Assembly: GCA_028042835.1 (NCBI GenBank)
Contig: JAOFOL010000023.1
Span: forward strand, 1-32,414
DNA from: Opitutales bacterium
GTDB taxonomy: Bacteria > Verrucomicrobiota > Verrucomicrobiia > Opitutales > Seribacteraceae
DNA: 32,414 bases
Direction of reading: 5' to 3'
In this document: in pieces, positions 2,259 to 16,565 of the stretch
How positions within the stretch are numbered: position 1 is the first letter of the stretch
Layout of the letters: every line of letters begins with the position of its first letter
Program-made: the position numbers and the translations under genes
The notes under the pieces: generated by a model
Seen by the model: the letters and a program-made list of their open reading frames with translations, nothing else
What the model was told of the DNA's origin: nothing
Databases searched by the model: none

Positions 2259-2300
2259 TTGCCCGGATGGCGGAATTGGTAGACGCGCTGGATTCAAAAT
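2259..2300 (+). repeat. attL: 42-bp copy of the 5' half of tRNA-Leu
   Basis: These 42 bases are identical to 16524-16565, which begin two bases before the intact tRNA-Leu gene and end in its anticodon arm (…GGATTCAAAAT). After this point the left copy continues into unrelated sequence (tttagattagcg) and no 3' half or acceptor partner follows, so it is not a functional tRNA. Together with the integrase gene 52 bp downstream it marks one end of an integrated island. Crossover somewhere inside the 42 bp is certain; the exact base is not visible. Confidence 0.92.
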
Positions 2301-2352
2301 TTTAGATTAGCGCACTAGATGTAGCGTAGGTCCCGCATAAACACTGGACACT

Positions 2353-3528
2353 ATGAAAAACCCATACTACATCAAGACTATGAACCACACACCACCTATG
2401 CGCAAATTAGGCGCTAAATCCCGAGTAGGAACACGCATATATAAAAAAACTGCGGATGGTGTTTTCTTTTACCGACCAACGGTAGATGGAAAGCAGCATT
2501 ATTTTCCTCTCGGATATGATAAACGAAAGGCACTTGATCTTGCTGACAAGATTCGTGCAGCCAAAACGCTCTACCCAATTAAAGAGGTAATTGAGATGTA
2601 TCATAAAAAGCGTTTTCAGGAAGAAAAGGATCCGACTCCGAAAGTCTCGGAAGTCGAAAAGCGATTAAGTGAGCATCATGTAGCCCTGGGGATAAATAAG
2701 AAAACAGTAAAAGATTATATGGATGCACTGAAACGAATCATTCGAGTAGTAACGAATGAAAAGGATGTCGATGATTTCGACTGCGGGGAATTAAATGAGA
2801 GCTTTATAAATGGATATAAAATGCTCGCACTCGCAGGGCTCAGCGATGAGGGCAAAATCCAATCTCGAAAGCGGACAATCAATACAAAGCTTCGATCTGC
2901 CAAAGCTATATTTAATCATAGAATCTATGATGGGTTTTGCATAGATTTCAATGAATCTTTGCAGGAAACTGATTTCTTCAAGAAGCTGGGCAAGCAGTAT
3001 AAACTACCACCCATGAAATTAATTCAGAATACCTTCGACCTTTGGCATTCGACCAACGGCGATGTCCATACGCTGATGGGCGTATCCCTGATTTTTGGAT
3101 TGCGTCGGAATGAAATATTCCATGCTCGACGGGACTGGTTTAGTTTTGAGGGTGAAAAGGCTCGGGTAAATGTAGAAGCGGAGAAAAGGTTTAAGCCGAA
3201 GGGTGGACATGAAGGGCATTCGATGGGAAATAAGGCCCTAGCCAAACGAATTCTTAATAAAGCGTCGGGTGATGATTATTTAATTAATAATCGTGCGGAT
3301 AATGGACGCCCTGTTTACAGCGAAGCTTTAGAGCTTTTGAGAGATATCGGATGGGATAGACCTAGTCCCTTGCATGAACTGCGAAAATTATTTGGTAGTT
3401 TTGTATCAACGACCGAGAGTTTATATACCTCCCAGAAATGGTGTAGGCATGCAGATTCTAAGACTACGAGCGAAAGCTACAGTGATTTGATCGAGGATAA
3501 AAAAGTTATATCTCGCTGGGTTGCCTAG
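2353..3528 (+). CDS. int: Tyrosine-type site-specific recombinase (island integrase)
   Basis: 391 residues if begun at 2353; in-frame ATGs at 2380 and 2398 are possible alternatives, the last just before MRKLGAKSRVGTRIYKK. The C-terminal catalytic domain shows the full active-site set: Arg in IFGLRRNEIF (R251/R252), a lysine in the beta-hairpin (VEAEKRFKPKGG, near 278), H-x-x-R in LHELRK (H341, R344), His in CRHADSKTT (H366) and the nucleophile Tyr in SESYSDL (Y376). The middle part (about 75-200) is helical like an SAM-like core-binding domain. It should cut and rejoin DNA at the tRNA-Leu anticodon arm to integrate and excise the island. It is read away from attL, so after integration the chromosomal tRNA promoter points into it. 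The frame looks intact and the protein probably active. Confidence 0.93.
   Translation: MKNPYYIKTMNHTPPMRKLGAKSRVGTRIYKKTADGVFFYRPTVDGKQHYFPLGYDKRKALDLADKIRAAKTLYPIKEVIEMYHKKRFQEEKDPTPKVSEVEKRLSEHHVALGINKKTVKDYMDALKRIIRVVTNEKDVDDFDCGELNESFINGYKMLALAGLSDEGKIQSRKRTINTKLRSAKAIFNHRIYDGFCIDFNESLQETDFFKKLGKQYKLPPMKLIQNTFDLWHSTNGDVHTLMGVSLIFGLRRNEIFHARRDWFSFEGEKARVNVEAEKRFKPKGGHEGHSMGNKALAKRILNKASGDDYLINNRADNGRPVYSEALELLRDIGWDRPSPLHELRKLFGSFVSTTESLYTSQKWCRHADSKTTSESYSDLIEDKKVISRWVA
2383..2394 (+). repeat. 12-bp motif AACCACACACCA, copy 1
   Basis: First of four plus-strand copies, all inside the island. It lies within the 5' end of the integrase gene, four bases before the in-frame ATG at 2398, so if translation starts there the motif is in the leader. 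Function unknown. Confidence 0.5.
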
Positions 3529-3680
3529 CGGGTTTCAGGAACGAGAATGACTCCATCCTGAACGCCTCAAACTTTTGGAAACTTTAGCTTTTTCAACCTA
3601 CATTGACGAATTCCGTGGGACTTAAACCCTACCCGGCGACACATCAAAAGCTTTGACAACCCCAATAATATTGGCGAATT

Positions 3681-6476
3681 ATGCAAAGCATGTATTCACT
3701 AAGGCAGATACTAATCCTTTTATTTGGAGTGGTAATCTCTTTGCAGGCGGTTCCCCCTGTCCTCAATTATGCAGGTCAGGTAGCGGTCAATGGCGAAGCC
3801 TTTGAAGGCAATGGCTTGTTCAAGTTCGCCTTGGTCAATTCGGATGAGAACGCGACCTATTGGAGCAATGACGGGACGAGTGTGAATGGATCGGAACCTA
3901 AGGCTTCCGTATCAGTTCCCGTAAACGGAGGATTATATTCGATCCTCTTGGGCAACACCGCCCAGCAAGGCATGGGGGAGATTGATCCTGCGGTGTTTGC
4001 TCAGCATACCGATGCCAAGTTGCGGGTATGGTTTAGCGATGGGGTCAATGGGTTTCAGCAGTTAAGCCCTGACCGTCCTTTTGCATCGGTGCCTTATGCG
4101 TTTACGGCGGGGACTGCGCAGACGGCAGGTTCAGCTACCATTGCGGATGGCTCGATTAATAAGTCAATGCTTGGGAGTGATGTGATTGCTGACCTGAACA
4201 AGACTGTAACCATTACCCGTGACATGCTGCCTCAGGATGTACGGGACGACTTAAATAAAACGATTACGATTACCAGGAATATGTTGCCTGCAGATGTATT
4301 GAGTGACCTGAATCGCACCATATCAAAATCCATGTTAGGAAGTGATGTACTTGCCGACTTAAACAAGTCCTCCACAACCCCTTCGCCCATTACTTTATCG
4401 ATGCTTGCCCCTGAAGTGACCGCCAAGTTGGATCAGAATGGATCAGGAGGAAATACCACTGTCATTAATCCACCCGTTGTTGGAAGTACTCTTGCATTAC
4501 CTTACGGACAAAATGCTCCTGCGGGGTATTCACTTTATCAGCGGGGGGAGGCTAAGGCGTTGGTTTGGGAAGAGAAGGCTCCTGTGAGTGTGGCGAGGTA
4601 TGCTTATGATGGAGTGGAGGTTTTGGGCGGTAAAATTTATTTTATAGGGGGTCATAATGGGGCAGGATCTAAAAATATTGCAGAGAGATATGAATCTGCG
4701 ACTAATTCATGGGAATCTCTCAATTCCATGTCAGTAGCTAGGCATGGAGTTGCATCTGCCGTACTTAATGGGAAATTTTACGCAATCGGAGGTTTAAATG
4801 GCTCGAATAATTTGTCTAGTGTTGTAATATATGATCCATCGACAGAAAGTTGGTCGGCAGGAGTTGCTCTACCAAGTGCAGTAAGTCACGCAAGTGCAAT
4901 GACAGTTAACGGGAAGATTTATTTAATTGGCGGTAAAAATGCATCTAACCAAAAAATTGATCAAGTTCTATGCTTTGATCCATCTTCAAATCAATGGTCT
5001 ACTAAAGCAAATATGCCGACCGCAAGAGAATCGATGAAACTTGTTTGGTTTGAGGATCGGATTTGGGCAATCGGAGGAAAGGACGACGGAAACTACTTAA
5101 ATACAGTAGAAAGCTACCTCCCGAATTCGGATTCATGGCAAACGGAAGCTTACCTATTAATAAATAGATTCCATCAAGTATCTTGGGTAGCAAATGGTAG
5201 AATCTATACGGGCGGTGGCTATAATGGTACATCCTATCTAGATTCGGTTGAGGTTTATGATCCAGCAACCAAACAATGGTCGAATGCGGGTAGTTTGCCT
5301 GGAAGTAAATATGTAACAGGCACCGTCGTCCTCAACAATACAGTATATGTAATCGCAGGATCAACCGCATCAGGCGTCTACTCCAACAAAGTCTACGCCG
5401 CCGACCTGAACGCCTCCGTGGAAGGCGTCTACGACTTGTACCGCAGGGACGGCAATGCTTCCGCGGGTACGCCCCTCGTTCAGGCGGAAGTGGCGGATGG
5501 ATCAGTGACGGGGAGTAAGATGGCAAATAATACGATTACCACCACTCAGCTCAACGAGCAGATTCTTAAGTATCTGAAACCTGAGATTAGCCAACAGCCT
5601 CAAACCTTTTCCGTTCTAGCAGGCAGTAATACATCCTTTTCCGTTACCGCCGAAGGCAAATACCTGAGTTACCAATGGAAAAAGGATGGCAGTAATGTGA
5701 CTGGCGAAACTAATGCCACCCTTAAAATCACCGATGCCAATGCCACCCAACACGACGGAAATTATTCCGTGGTGGTGAGTAATGAATTTGGAAATGTTGA
5801 ATCAAATGCTTCCGAATTTCTAGTCATCAATCAAAATAGAATTACTCAGGGATTGGTTGGTTGGTGGCCATTGGACGGAAACGCATCTGATATGTCAGGT
5901 AATGGAAATGATGGTATAATTAAGGGAGCGATTCCTGAAATGGATCGTAGAGGTGTTTCAGGAAAAGCTTATTATTTGGACGGAGTTGATGACGAAATTA
6001 CACTTGGAAACAGTTCAATTCTTAATCCTACCAACACAATGACTTTGTCTGTTTGGTTCAAGATTGAATCTTGGAAGCGTAGTCCAATAATTGAAAGATA
6101 TAATACAGATTCTGGTCAAAAAGCTTACATATTGGATGCTCCACGAGTCAACACGAGGGTTTTAAGATTTAGAGCATTTGTGGCAAATAATTCTCAGCAT
6201 ACAGAAATTAGTAGCTCGCAGCTCCAACTAGATACCTTTTACAATGCGTCTGCAACCTATGATTCAAATAATGAATCATGTTTGTTTTTAAACGGCGTTT
6301 TGCAAAGCAGACAAAATGTTTCTGCTCAAATTCAGTCAACTACAAGTGAAACTACACTAGGCGGTTATGTATTTTCCCAACAAAATTATTTCCATGGCAC
6401 AATCGACGATGTCCGCATCTACGACCGTGCCTTATCCGCCGAAGAAGTGCAGGCTCTGTACAACTTGGGGCAGTAG
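3681..6476 (+). CDS. Secreted Kelch propeller / Ig-like / LamG mosaic surface protein
   Basis: 931 residues. Residues 1-23 are a signal peptide. Residues 24-145 form a beta-rich head (VLNYAGQVAVNGEAFEG… PFASVPYAFTAGTAQ) seen at the N-terminus of many secreted bacterial adhesins and fibre-like proteins. Residues about 150-250 repeat the unit SMLGSDVLADLNK / DMLPQDVRDDLNK. Six Kelch repeats follow (about 300-570; each has IGG and a YDPxxxxW-type strand), enough for a closed beta-propeller. An Ig-like domain lies at about 630-705 (YQWKKDGSNVTGETNATLKI) and a LamG/concanavalin-like domain at about 715-931 (GLVGWWPLDGNASDMSGNGN … IDDVRIYDRALSAEE). It is likely an adhesin or glycan-binding protein outside the cell (inference). 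Base use is mosaic: the Kelch core and LamG core are AT-rich, while the joins around 5335-5560 and the last 75 bases are GC-rich. No membrane anchor is visible. Confidence 0.85.
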   Translation: MQSMYSLRQILILLFGVVISLQAVPPVLNYAGQVAVNGEAFEGNGLFKFALVNSDENATYWSNDGTSVNGSEPKASVSVPVNGGLYSILLGNTAQQGMGEIDPAVFAQHTDAKLRVWFSDGVNGFQQLSPDRPFASVPYAFTAGTAQTAGSATIADGSINKSMLGSDVIADLNKTVTITRDMLPQDVRDDLNKTITITRNMLPADVLSDLNRTISKSMLGSDVLADLNKSSTTPSPITLSMLAPEVTAKLDQNGSGGNTTVINPPVVGSTLALPYGQNAPAGYSLYQRGEAKALVWEEKAPVSVARYAYDGVEVLGGKIYFIGGHNGAGSKNIAERYESATNSWESLNSMSVARHGVASAVLNGKFYAIGGLNGSNNLSSVVIYDPSTESWSAGVALPSAVSHASAMTVNGKIYLIGGKNASNQKIDQVLCFDPSSNQWSTKANMPTARESMKLVWFEDRIWAIGGKDDGNYLNTVESYLPNSDSWQTEAYLLINRFHQVSWVANGRIYTGGGYNGTSYLDSVEVYDPATKQWSNAGSLPGSKYVTGTVVLNNTVYVIAGSTASGVYSNKVYAADLNASVEGVYDLYRRDGNASAGTPLVQAEVADGSVTGSKMANNTITTTQLNEQILKYLKPEISQQPQTFSVLAGSNTSFSVTAEGKYLSYQWKKDGSNVTGETNATLKITDANATQHDGNYSVVVSNEFGNVESNASEFLVINQNRITQGLVGWWPLDGNASDMSGNGNDGIIKGAIPEMDRRGVSGKAYYLDGVDDEITLGNSSILNPTNTMTLSVWFKIESWKRSPIIERYNTDSGQKAYILDAPRVNTRVLRFRAFVANNSQHTEISSSQLQLDTFYNASATYDSNNESCLFLNGVLQSRQNVSAQIQSTTSETTLGGYVFSQQNYFHGTIDDVRIYDRALSAEEVQALYNLGQ

Positions 6477-6482
6477 TCCCAC

Positions 6483-6839
6483 ATGAATCTCCGCACCAAC
6501 ATATACCTTTCTAAATGCTATCGTAATCTGGACATAAAAGCTATTCTATTAACTCTGTTTGTCATTTGGTAGGGATGGAAATTGTAGGTATCTTTTTGGG
6601 GAATTTGGACGCTTGGGCGGGCTCACAAGTCATACCGCAGAGGGTATGTTTCTGAATGGAAAAAGACTCATAAGACTGGTAGAAAGTTTTATAAACATGA
6701 TGACCCCATTAGTTTTTGGACTCACATCATTGCGGAAAGCGTAATAGGAGTTGGAATAATTGTATTATGCCTTTACTGCTTAAGCTTGCCTCCTAATGAA
6801 GGTCTTCCACAAAAGGGTCCAGTATTTCCTCTAAGGTAA
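6483..6839 (+). pseudogene. Degenerate TPR 5' end (copy 1) running into a broken membrane protein
   Basis: The frame starts six bases after the LamG gene stop with ATGAATCTCCGCACC, matching the start of the TPR gene at 9240 (MNLRT, then LSK, YRNL). It then runs through two in-frame TAG codons (6570-6572 and 6585-6587) and stays in the same frame to a TAA at 6837-6839. The downstream part (VSFWGIWTLGRAHKSYRRGY … WTHIIAESVIGVGIIVLCLY) reads as a basic segment plus a C-terminal membrane helix. The piece after the second TAG has no ATG, GTG or TTG of its own. I read it as a dead fusion of a TPR gene start with a small membrane protein. Readthrough of the two ambers is a weaker alternative. Confidence 0.6.
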
Positions 6840-6904
6840 TTCTATACTGCAAACCACTACGACAAGTGGTGTTCAAGACTAAGCCCCTACCATCCTCCAA
6901 CCCT

Positions 6905-6967
6905 TTGAACCTCGGGCCCCACCTATCCATCTCCAGCGGATTCCGCGAGATGGGTATATTTTGCTAA
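6905..6967 (+). pseudogene. Degenerate TPR 5' end, copy 2
   Basis: A 21-codon frame TTG AAC CTC … TAA encodes LNLGPHLSISSGFREMGIFC, which lines up with MNLRTHLSRSNGYRELGMYD at the start of the TPR gene at 9240. The shared DNA includes CCCACCTATCC, and TTCCGCGAGATGGG against TACCGCGAGTTGGG. It ends after the shared part, so only the seed of the gene is present. Confidence 0.6.
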
Positions 6968-7148
6968 GTCGATCTTGTTTATAAAATTAGTGTAAGCTTA
7001 TAATGGGCGAATCCCATGTTGGTTTTTCTGTGTTTTTGCTCATCCTAGTAGGATAAGTCTTGGGGCGTTTATTTAGCTACACTACGGGGTGTCATATGTG
7101 TCATTGAGTTAGTGGCAAATTATATCGGACTGATAACCGTAACACAAA

Positions 7149-7343
7149 TCAGCGGATGCTCAGGCATCCGCCTCTGCCATGCACATAATCCTGAACATAT
7201 CTGTCCAAGTGACGAAGGAGAACATCATGGGACTTGTCCGTTCTGCGATAGATAAACTTTAATTGAACAGAGTAAGAAAGGTAAGCCCGGTAGTCGCCAA
7301 TGTAATAATAGAGGTGACCATTATGCGAATGATACTTAGGCAT
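7149..7343 (-). CDS. Small hypothetical protein, Tyr/His-rich
   Basis: 64 codons from an ATG at 7343. The product is rich in Tyr, His and Arg (HLYYYIGDYRAYLSYSV, HDVLLRHLDRYVQDYVHG). No family is recognised and no Shine-Dalgarno is visible. Its support is that nothing else occupies this DNA and that an 8-bp perfect hairpin sits exactly at its stop codon, as a terminator would. It could be a chance ORF in decayed DNA. Confidence 0.35.
   Translation of the reverse strand: MPKYHSHNGHLYYYIGDYRAYLSYSVQLKFIYRRTDKSHDVLLRHLDRYVQDYVHGRGGCLSIR
7151..7170 (-). terminator. Perfect 8-bp hairpin at the end of the minus-strand ORF
   Basis: GCGGATGC-TCAG-GCATCCGC is a perfect inverted repeat with a 4-base loop. 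On the minus strand it is followed by tgatttgtgtt, which is only moderately T-rich, so termination is plausible but not strong. Confidence 0.45.
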
Positions 7344-7577
7344 TGATTGTCGATAAGCATACTTACAAATCGCAAGTGTAGTCAGTTCAGATCAATAATG
7401 GGTGATTCTATTAGAGAATCTGCTTCATTGAAGCGTAAGGACTTTAGTGAAACTTATACGAATAGTGAATGTCTGAACCAGTAAAAGTAAGAAAGCCAAT
7501 CCTTTTCACCAAGTCTCGACCCTACCAGGTCAAGACAAAGGTCTTGCCTAGCAAGGCGAACCATAAGAAAAAAATTT

Positions 7578-7883
7578 ATGGCAAAGAAAAAGGAAGAAGT
7601 TTCTGATGAATTTAAGTCAGATATATACGAGCATTACCAAAACAGCGTCTCATTGTATATGCTTTTGAGAATGGAAGCAGAGAGAGTTAAGCGAGAGATT
7701 AAAATAAATGCAGAGGAACATGATCCAAAGAGGATGCGTAGAGATTTGCATGATGCAAACATGGTGCAAATGTTCAGCAGTAGACTTATCGCCAATCTTG
7801 CTGAAATAACAAGAAAATCCTATGAGACTAAGAAAGTTCTTGGTACTACAGTAAAGACTCTTTCCGAACAGGACATAGCCTAA
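7578..7883 (+). CDS. Small hypothetical, helical charged protein
   Basis: 101 residues starting MAKKKEEVSDEFKSDIYEHY. It is strongly charged and predicted by eye to be nearly all helical (long runs such as MLLRMEAERVKREIKINAEE, then LIANLAEITRKSYETKK), with no signal peptide or membrane segment. No family is recognised. It stands alone, plus strand, with A-rich DNA (aagaaaaaaattt) but no clear Shine-Dalgarno before the ATG. Size and composition resemble small cytoplasmic phage or island proteins that act as structural or DNA-packaging helpers, but that is only a guess. Confidence 0.6.
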   Translation: MAKKKEEVSDEFKSDIYEHYQNSVSLYMLLRMEAERVKREIKINAEEHDPKRMRRDLHDANMVQMFSSRLIANLAEITRKSYETKKVLGTTVKTLSEQDIA

Positions 7884-8057
7884 TCGATACATAAGAAGCT
7901 TTATAGCATTAACACTCTACACGATCTGCCACCAGGAATTGTGTTTCGTGCTAGGCTACCTTTTTTCTGAACAAATGATCGATAATCGTTGAGACTGAAT
8001 AGTTATCCTATTAAGTTGGCTTGACGAGGGGTGGGAGGTTTGGTTTGGTTTAGCTAT

Positions 8058-8660
8058 ATGAAAACTGTGCTACTTTCACTGATTCTTTCTTTTCCGCTCT
8101 TGTTAAACGGGGACGATGAACCTATCGATTATGATCGTTTGGAAAAACGCGAAGTAAATGGTGAGGTATTACTTTTTATCGTTGATAGTAAGAATCCTTT
8201 TACCGGTACAACCACCACTTTAAGGTACGAGAATGGGCAGAAGCGGGGTGCATTGGGTTTCAAGGCCGGAAAGCAGGATGGGCTAGCGACTAGTTGGTAC
8301 AAGAATGGACAGAAAAAAGATGAAGGTTACATGACTGATGCAAAATACTCTGGGTCATATAAAAGTTGGTATGAAAACGGACAGAAAAAGTCAGAAAAAA
8401 ATTTTAAGGACGGTGAGTGGGAGGGGCTTAGAACTACATGGCACGAGAATGGGCAAAAAAAGTCGGAATCAAACTTCAAGGAAGGAAAGCCGGATGGACT
8501 TATGACTTGGTGGTATGAAAACGGACAGAAACATTCAGAAAGGAACTATAAAGAAGGCAAGCCCGATGGAGTTCATATTTCTTATGATAAAACGGGGAAA
8601 GAAACCTTCAGAAGCTCATACTTCCAAGGAATCTTGAAGTCCCTGGTTAAATCTCCTTGA
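8058..8660 (+). CDS. Secreted YwqK-type MORN repeat protein (small copy)
   Basis: 200 residues from the ATG at 8058, chosen because a signal peptide begins there (MKTVLLSLILSFPLLLNG); an upstream GTG at 8031 is possible. After a head segment (VNGEVLLFIVDSKNPFTGTT) come six repeats of the MORN_2/YwqK type, each like WYENGQKKSExNFKxGxxxG. Databases often call such proteins 'YwqK family antitoxin', but the biochemical role is not established and no toxin partner is visible here. It has the same head-plus-repeat architecture as both halves of the large copy at 10188-11711 on the other strand. Its stop TGA overlaps the TTG of a TPR gene fragment (TTGA). Confidence 0.8.
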   Translation: MKTVLLSLILSFPLLLNGDDEPIDYDRLEKREVNGEVLLFIVDSKNPFTGTTTTLRYENGQKRGALGFKAGKQDGLATSWYKNGQKKDEGYMTDAKYSGSYKSWYENGQKKSEKNFKDGEWEGLRTTWHENGQKKSESNFKEGKPDGLMTWWYENGQKHSERNYKEGKPDGVHISYDKTGKETFRSSYFQGILKSLVKSP

Positions 8661-8824
8661 AAACCTCCATCCACCTATCCCGCTTCAACGGTTACCGCGA
8701 GTTGGGAATGTACGACGAATCAATCAACCAAGACGATGTGTGGACATACGAAGTCATCAAAGCGAAGTATCTGACCTATCGGGATGCCAAGGAATGGGAG
8801 GTTTCGAAGGTAAGCAGAGGATAG
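8657..8824 (+). pseudogene. Truncated TPR gene, copy 3
   Basis: A 56-codon frame, TTG start overlapping the stop of the YwqK gene. It encodes HLSRFNGYRELGMYDESI and later KYLTYRDAKEWE, nearly identical in DNA and protein to the start of the TPR gene at 9240, then diverges at VSKVSRG and stops. The break falls just before the membrane protein gene at 8839, as if that gene's arrival replaced the rest. In the middle, NQDDVWTYEVIKA differs from LELEEI-GEDRWHPSVVEA of the other copy, so this is a diverged paralogue rather than a fresh duplicate. Confidence 0.65.
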
Positions 8825-8838
8825 GCTTTCTTAAAAGA

Positions 8839-9231
8839 ATGAAATTATTAATCAAAATTACTTTCGTATTTTCAGTACTTTTTGTATTTTGGGTTGTCAG
8901 TATTGACGGAGTCATTGAGGAATTTCGAATCGGAAAAGTGGGGAATGTGCTGAGTTTTTTATTTTATTGGTGGCCGATAGGATTTTGTGTGGGATTACTA
9001 TTTGGAGGGTTTTTCCATTTTTTATCAAAATGGATACTCATTCAAAGTGAGGTGATTTTAAGAAGGTTTTTTTTGTTTTTCTTGTATGCAGTAGTTTTGT
9101 TTAAAATATTTTCCAGAGGTATGATTACAGATCGAACGGAGGCGATAATTACCGTTTGCATAATAATCATTATTGCCGTGTTCCATTATGGGATTAACTG
9201 GATCTTTCCTTCCAAGAAACAAACTATCTAA
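8839..9231 (+). CDS. Small integral membrane protein
   Basis: 130 residues from the ATG at 8839; an upstream frame reaching back to 8740 is antisense-like overlap with the TPR fragment and is rejected. Four hydrophobic segments are visible at about residues 4-22 (IKITFVFSVLFVFWVVSI), 38-62, 76-95 and 104-125, with a basic C-terminus (PSKKQTI). No family is recognised. It is flanked on both sides by copies of the same TPR gene start (8657 and 9240), so it looks like an inserted cassette. Confidence 0.6.
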   Translation: MKLLIKITFVFSVLFVFWVVSIDGVIEEFRIGKVGNVLSFLFYWWPIGFCVGLLFGGFFHFLSKWILIQSEVILRRFFLFFLYAVVLFKIFSRGMITDRTEAIITVCIIIIIAVFHYGINWIFPSKKQTI

Positions 9232-9239
9232 TTAACCCC

Positions 9240-9707
9240 ATGAACCTCCGCACCCACCTCTCCCGCTCCAACGGCTACCGCGAGTTGGGAATGTATGACG
9301 AATCAATCCTGGAACTAGAAGAAATTTAGGGCGAGGATCGGTGGCATCCATCAGTCGTGGAAGCAAGGTACAAAACCTACCGTGACGCCAAAGAATGGGA
9401 ACTGGCAATGACGATGGCAAAAGTGTTGGCTAATGGAATGCCCGACAGGTTGGAGTGGTTGAATAATCAGGCGGATGCGATGACTGAGTGCGGTGATACC
9501 GCAGGAGCTTTGCAGTTGCTTAAAGACGCTTCTAAGCGGTTTGAAGAGGACGGGAAATACCTACTAGCGGTTGGTCGTCAGTATGCCCTCTTGTGTGAGA
9601 TTGAGGAAGCCAAGAAGTATGTTAAGCGGGCAATTAAAGCGGACAGTTCTCTCAAGGCTGACTTTCTCGATGATCCTGCGTTTGATCCGGTGTGGGAGAG
9701 TTTTTGA
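9240..9707 (+). pseudogene. TPR-like protein gene with one in-frame amber (copy 4, the only full-length copy)
   Basis: The frame from ATG 9240 (MNLRTHLSRSNGYRELGMYD) continues without shift to the TGA at 9707, 156 codons, interrupted only by a TAG at 9327-9329 in EEI*GEDRWHPSV, a position where one change from CAG would restore Gln. The part after it contains helix pairs typical of tetratricopeptide repeats (AKEWELAMTMAKVLANG, LNNQADAMTECGDTAGALQL, YLLAVGRQYALLCEIEEAKK) and ends FDPVWESF. It may still make a C-terminal 116-residue product from a downstream GTG at 9357. It starts eight bases after the membrane protein stop. TPR proteins bind other proteins; the partner is unknown. Confidence 0.7.
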
Positions 9708-9720
9708 GTGGGACTATCTG

Positions 9721-9747
9721 AGCGCCTCTTAGGGCGAGGGTCAAGGG
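9721..9747 (-). repeat. GYF-leader repeat, copy 1
   Basis: Matches 10142-10168 with one difference. Read on the minus strand it gives TTGACC, then CTCGCCCTAAGAGGCG. The two other copies precede lipoprotein genes; this one has lost its gene and abuts the end of the TPR gene. Confidence 0.6.
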
Positions 9748-9748
9748 G

Positions 9749-9775
9749 GGAGCTGTTTTACTCCTAGGCAGCTCC
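9749..9775 (-). terminator. Hairpin between convergent TPR and ankyrin genes
   Basis: GGAGCTG … CAGCTCC, 7-bp stem with a 13-base loop, one base after the ankyrin gene stop. There is no T-tract on either side, so it is a weak terminator candidate. Confidence 0.35.
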
Positions 9776-9776
9776 T

Positions 9777-10130
9777 TCATCTGTCAGGTGACGATCTGCC
9801 GCCATTCTTTTTTAGAAGCTTGGCAAGCTCTTCATGCCCCCTGTCTTCAGCTAGATCCAGTGCAGTCTGGCCATCCCTCTTACGTCCAATATTCACATCG
9901 GCGCCTTTGCTCAACAAAAGCTCCGCAGCTTCGATTTGGCCTCTAGTGGCGGCTCGCTGAAGGGGTGTTTCTCCATCTCTGCCGTTTTGGGAATTAATAT
10001 TGGCTCCTTCCGCAATCTCTTTTTCAATAAGCTCCAAATTACCAGCTTCTGCGGCTTCATGCAGGATATCCTGTCCACACCCAACCATGAGCAGACTAAC
10101 AAACAGAGCAAATAACATAGCTTTTATCAT
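9777..10130 (-). CDS. Ankyrin-repeat lipoprotein
   Basis: 117 residues from the ATG at 10130, chosen because the lipoprotein signal starts there (MIKAMLFALFVSLLMVGCGQ, Cys 18 as lipidated residue). The mature part carries about three ankyrin repeats: DILHEAAEAGNLELIEKEIA, ETPLQRAATRGQIEAAELLL with SKGADVN, and QTALDLAEDRGHEELAKLLK. It should sit on the membrane facing the periplasm and bind protein partners. Its leader and signal peptide are near-identical to those of the upstream YwqK gene (ALF-SLLMVGCG), so the two genes share a duplicated 5' module with different bodies. Alternative start 10142 only adds four residues. Confidence 0.75.
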   Translation of the reverse strand: MIKAMLFALFVSLLMVGCGQDILHEAAEAGNLELIEKEIAEGANINSQNGRDGETPLQRAATRGQIEAAELLLSKGADVNIGRKRDGQTALDLAEDRGHEELAKLLKKNGGRSSPDR

Positions 10131-10141
10131 TTCACTATCCA

Positions 10142-10168
10142 AGCGCCTCTTTGGGCGAGGGTCAAGGG
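10142..10168 (-). repeat. GYF-leader repeat, copy 2
   Basis: Minus strand TTGACC-CTCGCCCAAAGAGGCG, 12 bases before the ankyrin lipoprotein ATG. Translated it gives LTLAQRGAWI, the tail of a GYF_2-like domain; CGCC…GGCG could also form a short hairpin and TTGACC resembles a -35 box. Confidence 0.65.
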
Positions 10169-10187
10169 TTAGGGGGTTGTCAGGGGG

Positions 10188-11711
10188 TTAGTCTTTGACG
10201 CGTTTATCATCCTTGTAGGATTCGCGACGTTCTACAGTCCCGTCCATGTTGTAGAAAGTCGCAAACCCGTTTCTTTTGCCGTCCTTGAAATTTATTTCCT
10301 CTTTCTTTTGTCCGTTCTCGTACCAAGAAGTCCTAAACCCGTCAGTCAATTTGCCGTCCTTCCAGATAGTTTCCGACTTCTTCTGTTCGTTCTCGTACCA
10401 TTCTGTCCAAGTACCGTTCGACTTGCCCTCCTCGAAGTTCATTTCAGACGCCTTTTGCCCGTTCTTGTACCATTTTGTCCACAATCCGTGCGGTTTGCCT
10501 TCCTTATAGGACATTTCAGACCCGATCAGACCGTTCTTGTGGAGCGTGGCATAACCGGTGTAGGGATTATTAGTACCGAGAAGATAGGTGACCCCGTCTC
10601 GATCTTGTAATTCCGACCAGTCGACGGCTGCTTCGATTTCGGTTTTTTCTTCGTCCTCAACCGGTTGCTTAATTGAATGTTGCATAATATCATCGACGAG
10701 GGAGTCGATTCCATTGATGAGTTCGTCTAGAGACTTCTCTGGGAGATCGACCGACATCGCCTCCGGTAACAACTCCTCCTTTACACTGAATTCTTTTACA
10801 GACTTCTTTGGGAGATCGACCTCACCGTCAATGTAAGATTTGCGAATCACTTCCGTACCATCTGCGTCGTACCAAACTATAACACCATCGCCGTCCTGCA
10901 CATTGGTCACGGGACACTTCTCGCCATTGGGCTTCCATGTAACGGCAGACATGAGCTTGTCGTCCTTGTAGTTTGTTTCTCCCTTCTTCTGACCGTTCTC
11001 GTTCCACTCCGTCCAAAGCCCGTCCCTCTTGCCGTCCTTGAAATTTCTTTCCCTCTCCTTCTGCCCGTTCTTATACCACTTCGTGCAAAGCCCGTCCACA
11101 TCATCTTCCTTCATGTTTGATTCAAACACCTTCTGTCCATTCTCTTGCCAATTCGTCCAAAGCCCGTTCAGTTGGCCGTCCTTCCAGTTTGATTCAGACT
11201 CCTTCTGCCCGTTCTCGTACCACACCGTCCAAAGCCCGTCCGGCTTGCCGTCTCTGAAGTGATTCTCCTCCTGCTTCTGTCCGTTCCAGTACCACTTAGT
11301 CAAAAGCCCATCCAACTTGCCGTCTTTGATTTTTACTTCCTGCTGCTTCTGCCCGTCCTCGTACCAAAAAGTCGAAAGGTCGTCAGGCTTGCCCTCTACA
11401 TATATCACATCGGCTTTCATTTGTCCGTTTTCGTGCCACTCAAGCGAGATCCCGTGTCTCCTTCCTCTCCAGTAACTAAATAATTCTTTAACCTGCCCAC
11501 TATCATACATTTTTTTTATAAAACCCGAATAAGGCTGTTTCTCGTTGGGTGCATAAACAAGTTTTTCGCCTTCTTCTCCCCGTTCTTGAATTTTATTCCT
11601 ATCAATCGCTTCGCCTATTTCTTTGTCTAAATATTCAGCATCATCCATGTGGAATAGCCCGCACCCAACCATCAACAGACTAGCAAAGAGAGCGAATAGT
11701 GTAACTTTCAT
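10188..11711 (-). CDS. Large YwqK-type MORN repeat lipoprotein with two repeat blocks
   Basis: 507 residues from the ATG at 11711, chosen for the lipoprotein signal MKVTLFALFASLLMVGCG. Block 1 (head LVYAPNEKQPYSGFIKKMYD, then about nine repeats like WYENGQKESESNWKDGQLNG) is followed by a low-complexity acidic linker (two DLPEKS/DLPKKS motifs, about 300-360) and block 2 (head GVTYLLGTNNPYTGYATLHK, then about five repeats). Each block has the same head-plus-repeat plan as the protein at 8058, so the gene looks like a fusion of two YwqK genes. Known family: MORN_2; function unknown. It should be anchored in the membrane by its lipidated Cys. An upstream in-frame TTG at 11747 lies in a GYF_2 remnant and is not favoured. 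Confidence 0.8.
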   Translation of the reverse strand: MKVTLFALFASLLMVGCGLFHMDDAEYLDKEIGEAIDRNKIQERGEEGEKLVYAPNEKQPYSGFIKKMYDSGQVKELFSYWRGRRHGISLEWHENGQMKADVIYVEGKPDDLSTFWYEDGQKQQEVKIKDGKLDGLLTKWYWNGQKQEENHFRDGKPDGLWTVWYENGQKESESNWKDGQLNGLWTNWQENGQKVFESNMKEDDVDGLCTKWYKNGQKERERNFKDGKRDGLWTEWNENGQKKGETNYKDDKLMSAVTWKPNGEKCPVTNVQDGDGVIVWYDADGTEVIRKSYIDGEVDLPKKSVKEFSVKEELLPEAMSVDLPEKSLDELINGIDSLVDDIMQHSIKQPVEDEEKTEIEAAVDWSELQDRDGVTYLLGTNNPYTGYATLHKNGLIGSEMSYKEGKPHGLWTKWYKNGQKASEMNFEEGKSNGTWTEWYENEQKKSETIWKDGKLTDGFRTSWYENGQKKEEINFKDGKRNGFATFYNMDGTVERRESYKDDKRVKD

Positions 11712-11849
11712 CTCCCCGATCCAATCGCCTCTTTGGGCGAGTGTCAAGGGTTTGAGATTCCCTGCCTTCAGGTATTGGCGGACTTGCTCAAGAGTAAATG
11801 CCCCATAGGTCTTGCCTTCTTTGTGGATGTGGATCTGGACCTTGTAATT
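11712..11849 (-). pseudogene. GYF_2 domain remnant in frame with the YwqK lipoprotein
   Basis: After a TAA, 46 codons without a start codon read VQIHIHKEGKTYGAFTLEQV, then RQYLKAGNLKPLTLAQRGDW. This fits the GYF_2 pattern (a strand, G-x-x-Y-G-P-F-x-x-E, a helix, L-A-x-x-x-x-W), with Ala in place of the usual Pro. The frame continues directly into the lipoprotein start at 11711. Its last part is the source of the leader repeat seen three times in this region. It is a fossil unless a non-standard start is used. Confidence 0.65.
11724..11750 (-). repeat. GYF-leader repeat, copy 3
   Basis: Minus strand TTGACA-CTCGCCCAAAGAGGCG, 12 bases before the large YwqK gene. This copy still belongs to a recognisable GYF_2 coding remnant (LTLAQRGDW). 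TTGACA is a perfect -35 sequence, but no good -10 follows at 16-18 bp. Confidence 0.65.
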
Positions 11850-11927
11850 TTAGAAGACGGATAGTTGTAGAGTCAACGGATGAGATTTATAACTTAATAA
11901 TATGTAAAAATAGGTATAAAAATATAC

Positions 11928-12539
11928 ATGTTTGACCACTTCTTCAAAGGGTTGTACACAAATTTAATGACAAGCCAATTTCGTCCTAAAGTTCCAACTC
12001 CTACTGATGACTCAATCTTTGAAAAGCTAAAGGGTGAGAGCGGTTGGTACGAACAGGCCAAAATTAAAGGCCAAAGGTTAATTATTGCAGATGGAATCGC
12101 GTATGATGACAATGGCCAAGAATTTGAAGGTGATACTAAGCAAACTCTTGGATCAGTGGTCAACCGCCTTAATCACCTTTATGGGGAAAGCATTTACGAT
12201 GTCGTGTATATTGACCAAGGGCAAAACGAAGGAAAAGTTGCGTTGATCGACATTCCTTCTCTCGATGCCTGTTACAGTCATCGGCACATGGTCGTCAAGG
12301 CCTTCAATCCATGTGCTGCCGGAAACGAGGAGCAAATAAAACATGATCTTTTTGCTCTTCCTTCTATTGAACAGTCAAACGAAGGGCCTAAAGGGGAATT
12401 TTGGAAAGCAATTAAGGATATTGTTGATTCCGGAAAGGATCTCCCCTTCTGCGGCGTGGTCCTGAAAAATTCGGAACACAGGTTTGACCGATCTGAAGAA
12501 GGTAATGAAAAAGACAGGTGGTGGGCGGTTGAATTATGA
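11928..12539 (+). CDS. Hypothetical cytoplasmic protein, 203 residues
   Basis: Starts MFDHFFKGLYTNLMTSQFRP; the Met at 11967 is an alternative. No signal peptide or membrane segment. Composition is that of a normal globular protein, with readable helix and strand alternation (GWYEQAKIKGQRLIIADGIA, VNRLNHLYGESIYDVVYIDQ). I recognise no family. The upstream DNA is very AT-rich (taatatgtaaaaataggtataaaaatatac), with a possible -10 TATAAC near 11890 and no Shine-Dalgarno. It is followed 47 bp later by a 51-codon ORF on the same strand, so the two may be a pair. It could be an immunity or anti-phage accessory gene by position only; the sequence gives no direct sign of this. Confidence 0.6.
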   Translation: MFDHFFKGLYTNLMTSQFRPKVPTPTDDSIFEKLKGESGWYEQAKIKGQRLIIADGIAYDDNGQEFEGDTKQTLGSVVNRLNHLYGESIYDVVYIDQGQNEGKVALIDIPSLDACYSHRHMVVKAFNPCAAGNEEQIKHDLFALPSIEQSNEGPKGEFWKAIKDIVDSGKDLPFCGVVLKNSEHRFDRSEEGNEKDRWWAVEL

Positions 12540-13229: not shown

Positions 13230-13364
13230 TTACAGCGTTTTAATAAGTTCTACTAAAACGCTTGGCCACGAGAGCACCTCGCTCTTGGTGTACAGGACTA
13301 CAACGAATCCATTATCGAAGTCAGCCAGCACATGCGTATGTGTGACCTCTGACTCTTCGCTCAC
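13230..13364 (-). CDS. Small hypothetical protein coupled to the HNH gene
   Basis: 44 codons starting GTG at 13364, overlapping the TGA stop of the HNH frame (GTGA overlap), ending TAA at 13230. Product VSEESEVTHTHVLADFDNGF, then VVVLYTKSEVLSWPSVLVEL. Protein-like composition and the stop-start overlap, the same kind as at 14685, suggest translational coupling. A purine-rich stretch (GGAAGAAAAAGAAG) precedes the start. No family recognised. Confidence 0.5.
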   Translation of the reverse strand: MSEESEVTHTHVLADFDNGFVVVLYTKSEVLSWPSVLVELIKTL

Positions 13365-13603
13365 TTCTTTTTCTTCCTTGAGAAGCTACGATTTTTCGAT
13401 TTTGAGACTACTCTGAGATTCTTTCGACGATTATCTGCGGTATTTCTATTCTTGTGATCGACATCCTTGCCGTCACCTTTCCTTGCTTTACCGGCTTTGA
13501 CCATCTTGCTTCGAGCTGAGTTCCTTTGAGCCCGTCTCTTCTTCTGCTTTGTCCTGCAGCTATTACGATGTCCATGGCTTTGATAAAAAAAGAGGCCCGG
13601 CAA
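13361..13603 (-). CDS. Small HNH-type basic protein, phage style
   Basis: The segment KMVKAGKARKGDGKDVDHKN, then NTADNRRKNLRVVSKSKNRS, is the core of a small HNH endonuclease-like protein found in many tailed phages: DVDH supplies the first His, and the N-x-x-x-N-L-R-V-V-S part follows. The C-terminus is very basic (RSFSRKKKK). The N-terminus is doubtful: the only upstream start in frame is a TTG at 13603, inside a terminator-like hairpin, and homologues have a different leader, so the true start may be lost; an internal ATG would leave about 50 residues. If active it would nick or cut DNA; many such proteins act in phage packaging or as homing enzymes. Coupled to the 44-codon gene downstream. 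Confidence 0.65.
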   Translation of the reverse strand: MPGLFFYQSHGHRNSCRTKQKKRRAQRNSARSKMVKAGKARKGDGKDVDHKNRNTADNRRKNLRVVSKSKNRSFSRKKKK

Positions 13604-13617: not shown

Positions 13618-13624
13618 AATACAT

Positions 13625-13642
13625 ATTAATAACCACACACCA
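13625..13642 (+). repeat. 18-bp direct repeat ATTAATAACCACACACCA, copy 1
   Basis: Exact match to 13902-13919, 277 bp apart; both contain the 12-bp motif also present at 2383 and 14878. This copy is followed by tATG, but that ATG opens only 15 codons. Confidence 0.7.
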
Positions 13643-13853
13643 TATGAGGATACCAAATGTACTCTTTCGTATTATCCAACTGAATACTTAGGTCAATCGC
13701 ATTCGATTGGCTAGCAACTATCATATATTCTCTGCGTTTACTATTTGTAGCCGCATCTCTCCATACCCTAAAAGCTCTGTAATCCAATACAGTGAAGAGT
13801 GAAAGGCGGTGCGGTTAGCTCAGGCAGGATTTTAAGATCCTATGGGGTGGAGA

Positions 13854-13892
13854 GAGTTGGGATTGAGTGTTCATTCCCGCAACTCTTCTCTG
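13854..13892 (+). promoter_or_regulatory. Leader hairpin before the DUF932 gene
   Basis: AGAGAGTTGGGA … TCCCGCAACTCTTCT can pair over about 8-11 bp, ending 10 bases before the 18-bp repeat and the DUF932 frame. It could be an attenuator or a leader structure. No T-tract follows. Confidence 0.35.
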
Positions 13893-13901
13893 ACAATAAC
13901 G

Positions 13902-13919
13902 ATTAATAACCACACACCA
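13902..13919 (+). repeat. 18-bp direct repeat ATTAATAACCACACACCA, copy 2
   Basis: Second exact copy, placed at the start of the DUF932 reading frame, where it encodes ITTHQ. The GP88-like gene has TTTHQ at its own N-terminus, encoded by the fourth copy of the 12-mer. Confidence 0.7.
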
Positions 13920-14688
13920 AGAAAAATCATTCGACCAACTCATCAATGTCCCAACGGAGCCAACCAAAAACATATCTCCAAGCAAGCGTTGGAAGCCTGT
14001 TCCTCATCATCATCTCGTTGAACTCGTCAAAGACAGTGTAACCTCTCAAGGATTCAACATTCATCAAGAACGCTACGGTCTCGATAAGCACAAAAACTTG
14101 TTTGGTATCATCAAACTCGAACGCGAAGATCACAGCAACGGTACCTTCCGTAATGTCATTGGTATTCGTAACAGTCACAATCAAGACTTCTCTGCCCAAC
14201 TTGTTGGCGGTGCAAATGTCATGGTCTGTGACAATCTCATGTTCTCTGGTGAATTCAGTGACAAAAGAAAGCACACAACTAATATCATGCGTGATCTACC
14301 CGAAATCGTTTACTCTCTAACCAATGATGTCGTTGGCTCTTATGGTAATCAAAAATGTCGCTACAATGGATACCGAGCAACATCTCTAGAAAAAGAAGAT
14401 GTCGCAGATATTATGTACGACGCTACTCGTAACGACTTCGCTATAGCCGGTGGCCAATATAACAAAGTAATCAACGAATACGAAAATCCGCAGCATGATG
14501 AATTCGAACCTGGTAATGCCTGGTCTCTATTCAATGCGTTTACCGAAATATATAAAGGATACAACGGTGCTGATGTTCGCAAAAGCATTAATCTACACAA
14601 TGTATTCGATCGTCACTGCAATGATGCAATCGAGCATGAAATGACAAGCTATGCACCTAATCAACTATCATTAGCCATCGCTGAGTGA
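13906..14688 (+). CDS. DUF932-family phage/plasmid protein, start unclear
   Basis: The frame is open from 13900 to the TGA at 14688. Its middle shows the family signature: FGIIKLEREDHSNGTF, GIRNSHNQDFSAQLVGGANV, VMVCDNLMFSGEF. Coding similarity clearly extends upstream of the first standard start (TTG 14098): SKRWKPVPHHHLVELVKDSV and TSQGFNIHQERYGL fit the family's N-terminal part. No ATG, GTG or TTG exists there, so either a rare start (ATA 13906 is in frame) or a lost start codon must be assumed. DUF932 proteins occur in phages and plasmids, often near replication genes; the function is unknown. The next gene overlaps its stop by GTGA, so translation is likely coupled. Confidence 0.75.
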   Translation: MTTHQEKSFDQLINVPTEPTKNISPSKRWKPVPHHHLVELVKDSVTSQGFNIHQERYGLDKHKNLFGIIKLEREDHSNGTFRNVIGIRNSHNQDFSAQLVGGANVMVCDNLMFSGEFSDKRKHTTNIMRDLPEIVYSLTNDVVGSYGNQKCRYNGYRATSLEKEDVADIMYDATRNDFAIAGGQYNKVINEYENPQHDEFEPGNAWSLFNAFTEIYKGYNGADVRKSINLHNVFDRHCNDAIEHEMTSYAPNQLSLAIAE

Positions 14689-14906
14689 ATATAGGTTACG
14701 CCCTTAAGATCCTCCGTAACCGTAAAAAATATACACCTACAGAGATCTCAGAAGCTAACCGCACTGTCGAAATAATGAACTCGATGCGAATCTGCCCAAA
14801 GTGCAATTCACGCATCATCTACTATAACCAATATCAACTCGGGGGATGTTTCCCCTGCTTACAATGGAAAACAATACAACCACACACCAAATCACATGGT
14901 CTGTAG
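14685..14906 (+). CDS. Small zinc-ribbon protein
   Basis: 73 residues from a GTG that overlaps the DUF932 stop (GTGA). A helical N-terminus (YALKILRNRKKYTPTEISEA) is followed by a Cys4 zinc ribbon: CPKC at about 38-41 and CFPC at about 55-58. It overlaps the start of the GP88-like gene by 43 bases in another frame. Zinc ribbons of this size often bind nucleic acid; the specific role is unknown. Confidence 0.6.
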   Translation: MNIGYALKILRNRKKYTPTEISEANRTVEIMNSMRICPKCNSRIIYYNQYQLGGCFPCLQWKTIQPHTKSHGL

Positions 14907-15661
14907 GTAATTCAAAACTACCAAAACGAATCATACACCTCAGTCTACCGTCGGGTCACACTTGTCCCGCCGCCGACCGATGCTCATCCAAAGCACATAT
15001 GATCACAGGTAAAATTACCGACGGACCAAATTGTGAATTCAGATGCTATAGTGCCATGCAAGAGGCAATCTATACGCATCTTCGTAATCAACGCTGGAAT
15101 ACTTTGTTCCGACTCAAAGGTGAGTCACGCAAAAAGATGTTCCAACTACTATCAGCATCGCTCAAGCGTAAGCATGACGCGTACATTGCTAATCACGGGC
15201 AAAGGCCTATCATCCGTGCTCATGTCGGTGGTGACTTCTTCAATAAGTCCTACTTCCTGGCATGGATGGATCTCGCTCGTTCGTTCAGTCCAACATGGTT
15301 CTATGCATACACCAAACGCATCGACCTATGGCTTGAGCACAAAGACCAAATACCATCAAACTTCGAACTTAATGCATCGTTCGGTGGTAAATATGACAAT
15401 CTGATTGAGCCTAACAATCTCAAGTCAGCTCGCGTCGTCTACAGTATCGAAGAAGCAGAAAGACTTGGTCTTGAGCTCGATAAAGACGACTCCCATGCAT
15501 ACACCCGCGGACCGAGCTTCGCTCAATTGATTCATGGCTGTCAACCAGCCAAGTCAAAAGCAAGCAAAGCACTCGCACAACTCAAACACACCAATGGCTG
15601 GACAGGATATAATAAGGGTTTTACCAAACTGCCGTTAAATAAATTAAAAGCCCCAGCTTAA
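14864..15661 (+). CDS. GP88-like phage protein
   Basis: 265 residues from the ATG at 14864 (MENNTTTHQITWSVGNSKLP); an ATG at 14846 adds six residues. It resembles the GP88 family of phage and plasmid proteins: NSKLPK near the start, a Cys motif TCPAADRCSSKAH … FRCYSAM, then HVGGDFFNKSYFLAWMDLAR, WFYAYTKR and SFGGKYDN. The family's role is unknown; the clustered Cys/His suggests metal binding. It is the last gene of a plus-strand trio (DUF932, zinc ribbon, GP88-like) that ends in a good terminator 29 bp later. C-ending codons are frequent in this trio, unlike the neighbouring cargo genes, which supports a separate, phage-like source. Confidence 0.75.
   Translation: MENNTTTHQITWSVGNSKLPKRIIHLSLPSGHTCPAADRCSSKAHMITGKITDGPNCEFRCYSAMQEAIYTHLRNQRWNTLFRLKGESRKKMFQLLSASLKRKHDAYIANHGQRPIIRAHVGGDFFNKSYFLAWMDLARSFSPTWFYAYTKRIDLWLEHKDQIPSNFELNASFGGKYDNLIEPNNLKSARVVYSIEEAERLGLELDKDDSHAYTRGPSFAQLIHGCQPAKSKASKALAQLKHTNGWTGYNKGFTKLPLNKLKAPA
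14878..14889 (+). repeat. 12-bp motif AACCACACACCA, copy 4
   Basis: Lies near the 5' end of the GP88-like gene. As at copy 2 it is read in frame as part of TTHQ. Confidence 0.5.
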
Positions 15662-15690
15662 TTTAACCAAAATACCAATTATTCATCTAA

Positions 15691-15727
15691 GGACCTCGGT
15701 ACTATCACAGTATCGGGGTCTTTTTTT
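15691..15727 (+). terminator. Rho-independent terminator after the GP88-like gene
   Basis: GGACCTCGGTACT-ATCAC-AGTATCGGGGTC followed by T7. A long, partly wobble-paired stem with a clean T-tract, closing the DUF932-zinc ribbon-GP88 operon. Confidence 0.85.
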
Positions 15728-16027: not shown

Positions 16028-16148
16028 CAATCACAGAAATAAAAAAGTATCTTTTTGAAGGCCCACCCCAACCGGTGGTAGGTGGGGTACTAAAAATGTA
16101 CTCTATTTTTAAATGAGGACGACTTCTTCTACCTCTAGGCCGAACTTA

Positions 16149-16403
16149 TCAAGAATTGGGTTTCTTTTCTTCTTCCCCATATCCGATCGAAAAACATTCT
16201 GACACCGACTGTTTTGGTGGAAATGCTACAGCGCCTTCGCTCCAGATTTCCGTATTCTTTTCATCAAATTCGAAATGAACTTTAATCAAAACATCCGAAC
16301 ACATTTCATTTTCGAGAGCACATAATCGAATCTGAGCAATCAAGTCCTCCGCGATCTGTTTTGCTTGAATACTTACTGACTCAAGCATGTCGTTTTCCAC
16401 CAA
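16149..16403 (-). CDS. Small hypothetical protein, 84 residues
   Basis: MVENDMLESVSIQAKQIAED, then a helix-strand mix (VLIKVHFEFDEKNTEIWSEG) and an acidic tail. No family recognised. Near its 3' end an ATG in another frame (16180) opens 23 codons, MGKKKRNPILDKFGLEVEEV plus VLI, ending at 16109; either this is a tiny overlapping gene or a frameshift has cut the main protein short. It is the last gene before the right end of the island; the 122 bp between it and the tRNA must hold the tRNA promoter. Confidence 0.5.
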   Translation of the reverse strand: MVENDMLESVSIQAKQIAEDLIAQIRLCALENEMCSDVLIKVHFEFDEKNTEIWSEGAVAFPPKQSVSECFSIGYGEEEKKPNS

Positions 16404-16523
16404 TTTCTGCTTATCTAACTAATCTTTCATTTTACTTTTACCGTTGCAAATTAGTTGCAAACCGCCATGTATAGTATTGAATAACACTGCTTCACATATG
16501 TCAAGCGGCTGACTTTCAACACT

Positions 16524-16565
16524 TTGCCCGGATGGCGGAATTGGTAGACGCGCTGGATTCAAAAT
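16524..16565 (+). repeat. attR: 42-bp direct repeat, part of the intact tRNA-Leu
   Basis: Identical to 2259-2300. It joins the island (left) to the 3' half of the tRNA gene in the chromosome (right). Confidence 0.92.

Follow-up and report, generated by a model that had tools for sequence, protein, structure and literature searches.

A phage-derived island that restores the front half of tRNA-Leu(CAA), with likely displacement of the tRNA promoter, in an Opitutales bacterium

Phages and islands often insert at tRNA genes, and the locus described here raises the question of what becomes of such a gene when the incoming element supplies its front half, together with the DNA upstream of it. The locus lies in a contig of 32,414 nucleotides (JAOFOL010000023.1, assembly GCA_028042835.1) from an Opitutales bacterium, analysed as a whole and called the window below, which carries a 14.2-kb island at its tRNA-Leu(CAA) gene. 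This gene (16526-16612, anticodon at nucleotide 35) is the single tRNA that ARAGORN finds in the window. A repeat finder returned an exact 42-nucleotide direct repeat, at 2259-2300 and 16524-16565, and a search for the 42-mer gave two plus-strand copies; the calculated chance of such a pair in 32 kb is about 3e-17. The repeat spans tRNA nucleotides -2 to 40, including the anticodon loop TTCAAAA (nucleotides 33-39), and ends at the first base past that loop, which is the geometry that the original prediction had described: a start two bases before the tRNA and a stop in the anticodon arm. We give the two leading bases no weight, because they vary among relatives and phages (TT, AT, GT, TA). The whole tRNA is present at the right copy only and the left copy is a 5' half, in agreement with the further claim that the island restores the 5' half. 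From the sequence, the front-half architecture at tRNA-Leu(CAA) is real. The best explanation of the whole, which we consider highly probable, is that the island is a decayed prophage of an uncultured phage group, or else derives from such a prophage; it would have exchanged strands in the anticodon loop, rebuilt the front half of the tRNA and displaced the host promoter. The features on which this reading turns are, from left to right (attL, attR and attP being the left, right and phage attachment sites and int the integrase gene):

2184-2258, plus strand: DNA left of attL, read as host, with a host-type tRNA promoter TTGCCA-16-TTGAAA at 2223-2250 (promoter model)
2259-2300, plus strand: attL, the displaced 5' half of tRNA-Leu(CAA), nucleotides -2 to 40 (exact repeat)
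2301-2352, plus strand: leader of the phage int (matches phage loci only)
2353-3528, plus strand: tyrosine integrase (PHROG phrog_1, E 4e-19; alignment; relatives in viral contigs 30-86% identical)
16149-16430, minus strand: attP-adjacent gene of the phage group, with an in-frame stop at codon 4 (its counterpart is present in 29 of 29 int-bearing viral loci, on 28 contigs)
16431-16523, minus strand: phage attP arm with the promoter TTGACA-17-TTCAAT, directed leftward into 16149-16430 (four-arm match; conserved minus-strand promoter)
16524-16565, plus strand: attR, the phage-supplied tRNA 5' half (exact repeat; attP form in viral contigs)
16526-16612, plus strand: complete tRNA-Leu(CAA), of the same sequence as the gene of several relatives (ARAGORN, 42-mer search)
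16613-17152, plus strand: host DNA right of the tRNA, a GNAT gene followed by MDH and AroG (synteny in 22 of 32 loci; 16613-16700 matches host loci only)

Has the tRNA been parted from its own upstream DNA? The order GNAT, MDH, AroG after tRNA-Leu(CAA), as in the window, recurs in 22 of the 32 fetched loci (22 genomes). In 19 of these the tRNA is uninterrupted, so that the relatives for which the original prediction had proposed a search do exist; two of the 19 (G009, G033) begin at a contig edge just upstream. We compared each of the four arms beside the two repeat copies with 61 host loci and 80 phage loci, sets in which loci partly overlap. The arm downstream of attR (16613-16700) matched host loci only. 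The arm upstream of attR (16404-16523) matched five of the 80 phage loci, at best with 77% identity over all 120 nucleotides, and none of the 61 host loci; the arm downstream of attL (2301-2352) matched phage loci only, for example with 97% over 32 nucleotides, and again 0 of 61 host loci. Since the right side matches relatives and both interior arms match phages only, the tRNA appears to have been relocated from its original upstream DNA. The finding that had been named in advance as fatal to this idea, an island-free relative with 16404-16525 upstream of its tRNA, was sought at the 61 host loci and seen at none.

Two other histories of the junctions were considered. The left 42 bp might stem from an older or different event, in which case 2259 would not be the left end of the element that ends at 16524. 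Such nesting would suit a left flank that has no match in relatives, and other elements do use a tRNA-Leu 5' half, for instance the T7-like contigs L061 and L077, but 2301-2352 and int agree with the phages in both their order and their spacing, and the 16149 gene stands at the opposite end, as a circle demands, which makes this history very improbable. An assembly artefact, with the end of a phage contig fused to a host contig at the common 42 bp, comes to mind in a genome that is 63% complete and broken into 110 contigs; it would need two false junctions in one contig, however, and the cargo and decay marks suggest long residence, so that we find it hard to credit.

The remaining three of the 22 syntenic loci differ at the tRNA itself. 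Two have an assembly gap inside it (G021, G015). These N gaps between two tRNA copies were considered as islands and not used, because the flanking copies differ in their anticodon stems and may be strain mixtures. The third (G003:C90, L054 1-145) has a tRNA-Leu(CAA) whose 3' strand is that of the host and whose 5' acceptor strand, GCCGAGG, is foreign; it sits behind TTGATT-16-TATAAT, the contig starting 58 bp upstream, and is either a hybrid tRNA or an assembly chimera. An exact search for its 5' half in viral contigs gave 0 matches. In a further locus (L052, G034:C25) an intact tRNA-Leu(CAA) at 13884-13972 is preceded, at a distance of 2.5 kb, by a tRNA-Leu 5'-half fragment at 11347-11381 (query nucleotides 9-43), a possible remnant of another 5'-half element.

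Does the unintegrated form exist? Among viral contigs (IMG/VR), the window integrase matched five loci at 72-77% identity, and a 32-nucleotide piece of the tRNA 5' half matched 36 stretches: 3 full tRNA-Leu(CAA) genes (L079, L082, L088), 8 with a GCGGGTG-type half as in L061 (L077, L085, L087, L089, L092, L097, L098, L101) and 25 belonging to the phage group of the window element. All 29 int-bearing viral loci, on 28 contigs, have the same order: a gene like that at 16149-16403 on the other strand, about 100-130 bp, the tRNA 5' half and then the integrase. ARAGORN reported no tRNA-Leu in these 29 loci. This order is the junction expected of the excised circle, and the unintegrated junction that follows from the original prediction is thus present in viral contigs. 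The junction alignment holds 31 sequences (24 distinct), the circle of the window included. Against 50,697 phage records the window integrase had no match at E <=1e-5, and the phage group has so far been seen only in environmental DNA and is uncultured.

The L061 type itself is a T7-like phage contig binned in the genome of a relative (G005:C88). It carries two GCGGGTG-type tRNA-Leu 5' halves (1463-1501 and 2555-2593), 1.09 kb apart on either side of a gene resembling a DNA methyltransferase, and both copies are followed by similar DNA.

Is the choice of the front half a property of this integrase? The open reading frame of the window integrase starts 52 bp past the left repeat copy. R251/R252, K283, H341, R344, H366 and Y376 are invariant in it and 12 relatives (13 sequences), and we take these R, K, HxxR, H and Y residues to be the catalytic ones. 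It matches 0 Pfam families at E 0.001, while 7 of 14 members of its family match PF00589 (best E 1.2e-5); the profile of the family matched no solved structure. The other 41 genomes of the host family gave a single, weak integrase match (25% identity, G036), and the 372 genomes of the order gave two others of about 30% at E 1e-10. Widening the family by profile scans produced a table of 56 integrases, from the window, 53 viral contigs and 2 genome contigs; L091, L095, L105 and L106 (int cut short, all with a Leu-CAA 5' half) and L297 (a 59-residue match) were left out. The DNA upstream of each integrase was compared with the tRNAs of two host genomes, G026 and G000, and the strand of the tRNA match set the label 5' or 3', with which the nucleotide ranges agree in 48 of 48 cases.

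A tRNA half lies upstream of int in 48 of the 56. There are 41 direct 5' halves (Leu-CAA 32, Tyr-GTA 4, Ser-CGA 3, Leu-AAG 1, Leu-TAG 1) and seven inverted 3' halves (Leu-TAG 4, Tyr-GTA 2 and Cys-GCA 1, the last at 91% identity); among the eight rows with none, int is cut by a contig end in three. The anticodon side points towards int in 48 of 48 rows with a half tRNA, so the half that is restored would follow the orientation of the tRNA. The 5' blocks end at nucleotide 40 or 41 and the 3' blocks begin at 31 or 32, and the stretch they have in common is therefore the anticodon loop. These counts are not independent events, because many contigs are near-copies. On a maximum-likelihood tree of 54 rows, use of the two halves switched at least three times and isotype at least six times. 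The 3' Leu-TAG clade is sister to a 5' Leu-CAA row (support 99/95), and this is the best supported switch because the tree flags long branches meeting, including the two Tyr groups. A single integrase family with the 5' halves of several tRNAs and also inverted 3' halves is new here.

We hypothesise, with somewhat less than even confidence, that these phages form one lineage with a fixed anticodon-arm polarity, which would inherit the front or the back half according to the tRNA entered, the same tRNA (Tyr-GTA, Leu-TAG) being enterable from either side. In front-half lysogens the tRNA would lose its promoter and int would come under this host promoter, whereas in back-half lysogens the tRNA would keep its promoter; silencing of the tRNA and constitutive expression of int would then be by-products of orientation.

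Which promoters face the two copies of the 5' half? Scans of both flanks for consensus sigma-70 promoters gave no promoter-like site and were replaced by a two-box model for which 54 regions upstream of host tRNAs (G026, G000) served as the training set, adopted because the host -10 box is weakly consensus-like. The training set contains the tRNA-Leu(CAA) region of G026 itself, which was also scored among 13 relatives (L009). The leave-one-out median of the model was 7.6 and the 95th percentile of shuffles 8.7. The left flank scored 9.5, the loci of the 13 relatives 6.2-11.7, and no terminator-like site was found before int. A host-like score at the usual distance and an open path favour the earlier claim that a host tRNA promoter before 2259 faces the half tRNA and the integrase. 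The right flank scored 4.8 at the normal distance, a value reached by 34% of shuffles. With the distance limit removed, a right candidate at 16444-16471 scored 10.0, and 426-bp shuffles gave a mean of 8.9 (95%, 11.1). We also scanned for consensus promoters (>=10/12) in 39 distinct sequences, the window included, and found them on the minus strand in 30 and on the plus strand in 6, with shuffles at 8%. Medians of the plus-strand model were 5.5 for 5'-half phages (n=40) and 2.2 for 3'-half phages (n=7), values that are not independent. Displacement of the promoter from tRNA-Leu(CAA) is, on these grounds, likely.

The original prediction had gone further, placing in 16404-16525 an island promoter that would serve the tRNA in the integrated state and int in the excised circle; the state of integration could in this way tune both the integrase and the decoding of UUG. 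The underlying swap of upstream DNA is real, since 16404-16523 is phage-like. One subgroup (L178-L182, L174) has a promoter-like TTGCAC-17-TAATTT before its half tRNA, scoring 10.0, and the window has its distant candidate at 16444-16471. That candidate, however, is in the shuffle range and overlaps a repeat that varies among phages, the score at the normal distance is background, and the conserved promoter lies on the opposite strand. As to decoding, a 96% complete relative, G026, has one sequence each of tRNA-Leu(CAA) and tRNA-Leu(TAA), and tRNA-Leu(TAA) also reads UUG by wobble. The incomplete G000 yielded 19 tRNAs; Leu TAG, CAA and AAG are among them and TAA is not. TTG makes up 47 of the 261 leucine codons in six host genes of the window, and the cell may tolerate losing the CAA tRNA. 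We consider an island promoter with this tuning role improbable, and retain from the proposed swap the displaced DNA and not the promoter.

Two further observations were made. The window (16443-16459) and its phage equivalents at attP have, between the 16149 gene and the promoter on the minus strand, short direct repeats spaced by 11 bp, of type GTTGC in the window and GGTAC, GATAC or GCGT in other phages, which look like an operator with a phage-specific sequence. Both G000 and G026 (L135, L168) have a tRNA-Leu with the anticodon AAG, with A at the wobble position, which is unusual in bacteria.

What kind of element is the island? Its other features are:

3681-6476, plus strand: kelch/Ig/LamG protein, cargo (Pfam; not found in the phage pieces searched)
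8031-11747, no strand assigned: repeat-rich cargo with MORN-like, TPR-like and ankyrin-like genes, named by inspection (open reading frames, repeats; three with PHROG matches of unknown function)
13361-13603, minus strand: phage gene resembling an HNH endonuclease (PHROGs; 74% identity over 66 amino acids in G374 and G375)
13900-14688, plus strand: DUF932 phage gene (open reading frames, Pfam; homologues in viral contigs)
14846-15661, plus strand: GP88-family phage gene (Pfam PF17338, E 1.8e-35; 65-76% identical in 3 of 17 phage records)

The right end (HNH, DUF932, a 73-amino-acid open reading frame and GP88) is homologous to the viral contigs G374, G375 and G372, which are 57-69 kb long with unclosed ends. 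GP88 was present in 3/17 viral records and DUF932 in 2/15 others, many of them short fragments. G374 and G372 encode a phage-type DNA polymerase, a helicase and rIIA/rIIB, and G374 also a terminase and an endolysin; no DNA polymerase, helicase, rIIA/rIIB, terminase, endolysin or capsid was recognised with PHROGs in the 14 island proteins scanned, and without a terminase or capsid match these do not make up a complete tailed-phage prophage. The middle of the island (3681-12539) had no match in the phage pieces searched, and its kelch/Ig/LamG protein matches several virion, tail and head-decoration PHROGs profiles through its repeat domains. The DUF932 frame is open upstream of 14098 and has no ATG, GTG or TTG start there. 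In the 16149 gene, the place of the stop at codon 4 is taken by tryptophan in L176 and L105. Genes of this type occur in 13 of 15 loci of the wider integrase family; an 18-sequence alignment and an AlphaFold model (mean pLDDT 80) give two helices and a beta hairpin, no match was found in the PDB at E <=0.001, and a role as excisionase or regulator is only a guess.

The island is phage-derived and apparently a decayed prophage with cargo. Its main rival is a working phage satellite, made of int, att, a few genes of larger relatives and cargo. Two exact, phage-like ends, an intact int that keeps the catalytic residues and the lack of a recognised terminase or capsid gene in the 14 proteins would suit a satellite; the stop in the 16149 gene, the missing usual start of DUF932 and a cargo not seen in the phage loci searched speak against it, and we regard it as unlikely. 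Repeats also occur in the cargo region, at 8655-8725 and 9238-9308 and, for a second family, at 9713-9747, 10134-10168 and 11716-11750, one of the two families being placed at the starts of cargo genes. The repeat CCCTTGAC before two cargo genes resembled a cassette border; the pattern used to look for it (19 genomes, 1 match in G003) is unlike the window copies and uninformative.

For the decayed prophage with front-half restoration we propose the following course. At tRNA-Leu(CAA), strand exchange by the tyrosine integrase would take place in the anticodon loop. On the side of attP opposite int the phage holds tRNA nucleotides 1-40, and integration would for this reason join the phage 5' half to the host 3' half. 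The host 5' half and its promoter would be displaced to the far end of the element, ahead of int, which this promoter would now transcribe, and the tRNA would be transcribed weakly or from an unrecognised phage promoter. A tRNA met one way would yield a 5'-half phage, and one met the other way a 3'-half phage. Sequence comparison shows the endpoints, the viral attP form, the origin of three of the four arms and identity blocks that bracket the exchange to nucleotides 31/32-40/41.

Several observations weigh against parts of this account. The left flank (2077-2258) had no match to any host or phage locus in the four-arm test, and its proposed host origin is based on the position of the promoter and on one FGE-like neighbour (44% identity, in 1 fetched relative). 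With the distance limit removed the left flank scored 9.9 and 9.5, within the shuffle range (95%, 10.5), and because of this the left promoter rests on position and score together. Of the true host tRNA regions, 17% score no higher than the right flank. No half tRNA was seen before int in L186, L211, L214, L259 and L265, where the upstream DNA is readable, so that either the polarity rule has gaps or a tRNA library from one genus misses the tRNAs of these five members. The 16149-type gene was not detected in L215 and L219, two of the 15 wider-family loci, and no other lysogen with both junctions was found. If the account holds, repeated use of the front half, with switches between halves, would make this phage family a natural experiment on promoter loss for a tRNA; the switching would inform how integrases change target, and the family offers many att sites for mapping the exchange point.

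Excerpts of earlier work allow a comparison with known systems. In the Islander survey, 159 of 3919 islands have a 5' fragment (PMC4383910, in part). The window resembles these in that a complete tRNA and a cognate fragment pointing the same way bound the island, with the integrase gene in the interval and the 5' fragment upstream of the tRNA; it differs in that the part of the survey cited does not link the choice of half, inside a single integrase family, to the orientation of the tRNA. A search of titles and abstract beginnings gave no report of that link. Restoration of the 5' half is rare yet known, and the family-wide polarity rule is the part that we have not seen described. According to the portion of a review cited here, the choice of the 5' half is unique in archaea, expression is seldom altered in bacteria, and a rebuilt bacterial tRNA retains its original promoter with very few exceptions (PMC8371274). 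The archaeal pTN3 has 41 bp in common with tRNA-Leu, the 5' half, and parts the tRNA from its original promoter (PMC5495485, in part). Its att block is thus like that of the window element, whose attP runs from nucleotide 1 of the tRNA to the anticodon loop and whose tRNA is rebuilt behind element DNA; unlike the window element, with attP between divergent genes and int left whole, pTN3 is archaeal and its integration disrupts the integrase gene (PMC5495485, PMC8371274, in part). In T7-like cyanophages such as P-SSP7 and S-TIP37, attP motifs of 39 bp correspond to the first half of tRNA-Leu, and PCR has shown cyanophage integration, but their attP lies downstream of int, upstream in the window, and integration is rare and perhaps transient (PMC8776855, in part). 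In the tRNA-dependent lysogeny of mycobacteriophages, integration into a tRNA gene also has consequences for that tRNA, which is not rebuilt and for which the phage brings a spare (PMC10865867, in part), whereas in the window the tRNA is rebuilt and no second tRNA of the isotype, or of any other, is present. Finally, an earlier suggestion, cited in the available part of the KplE1 study, holds that an integrated element may profit from transcriptional coupling to the tRNA gene; KplE1 carries the argW 3' end and its int has its own promoter in attL, while in the window element such coupling would go through the promoter left behind and the half tRNA (PMC2951348).
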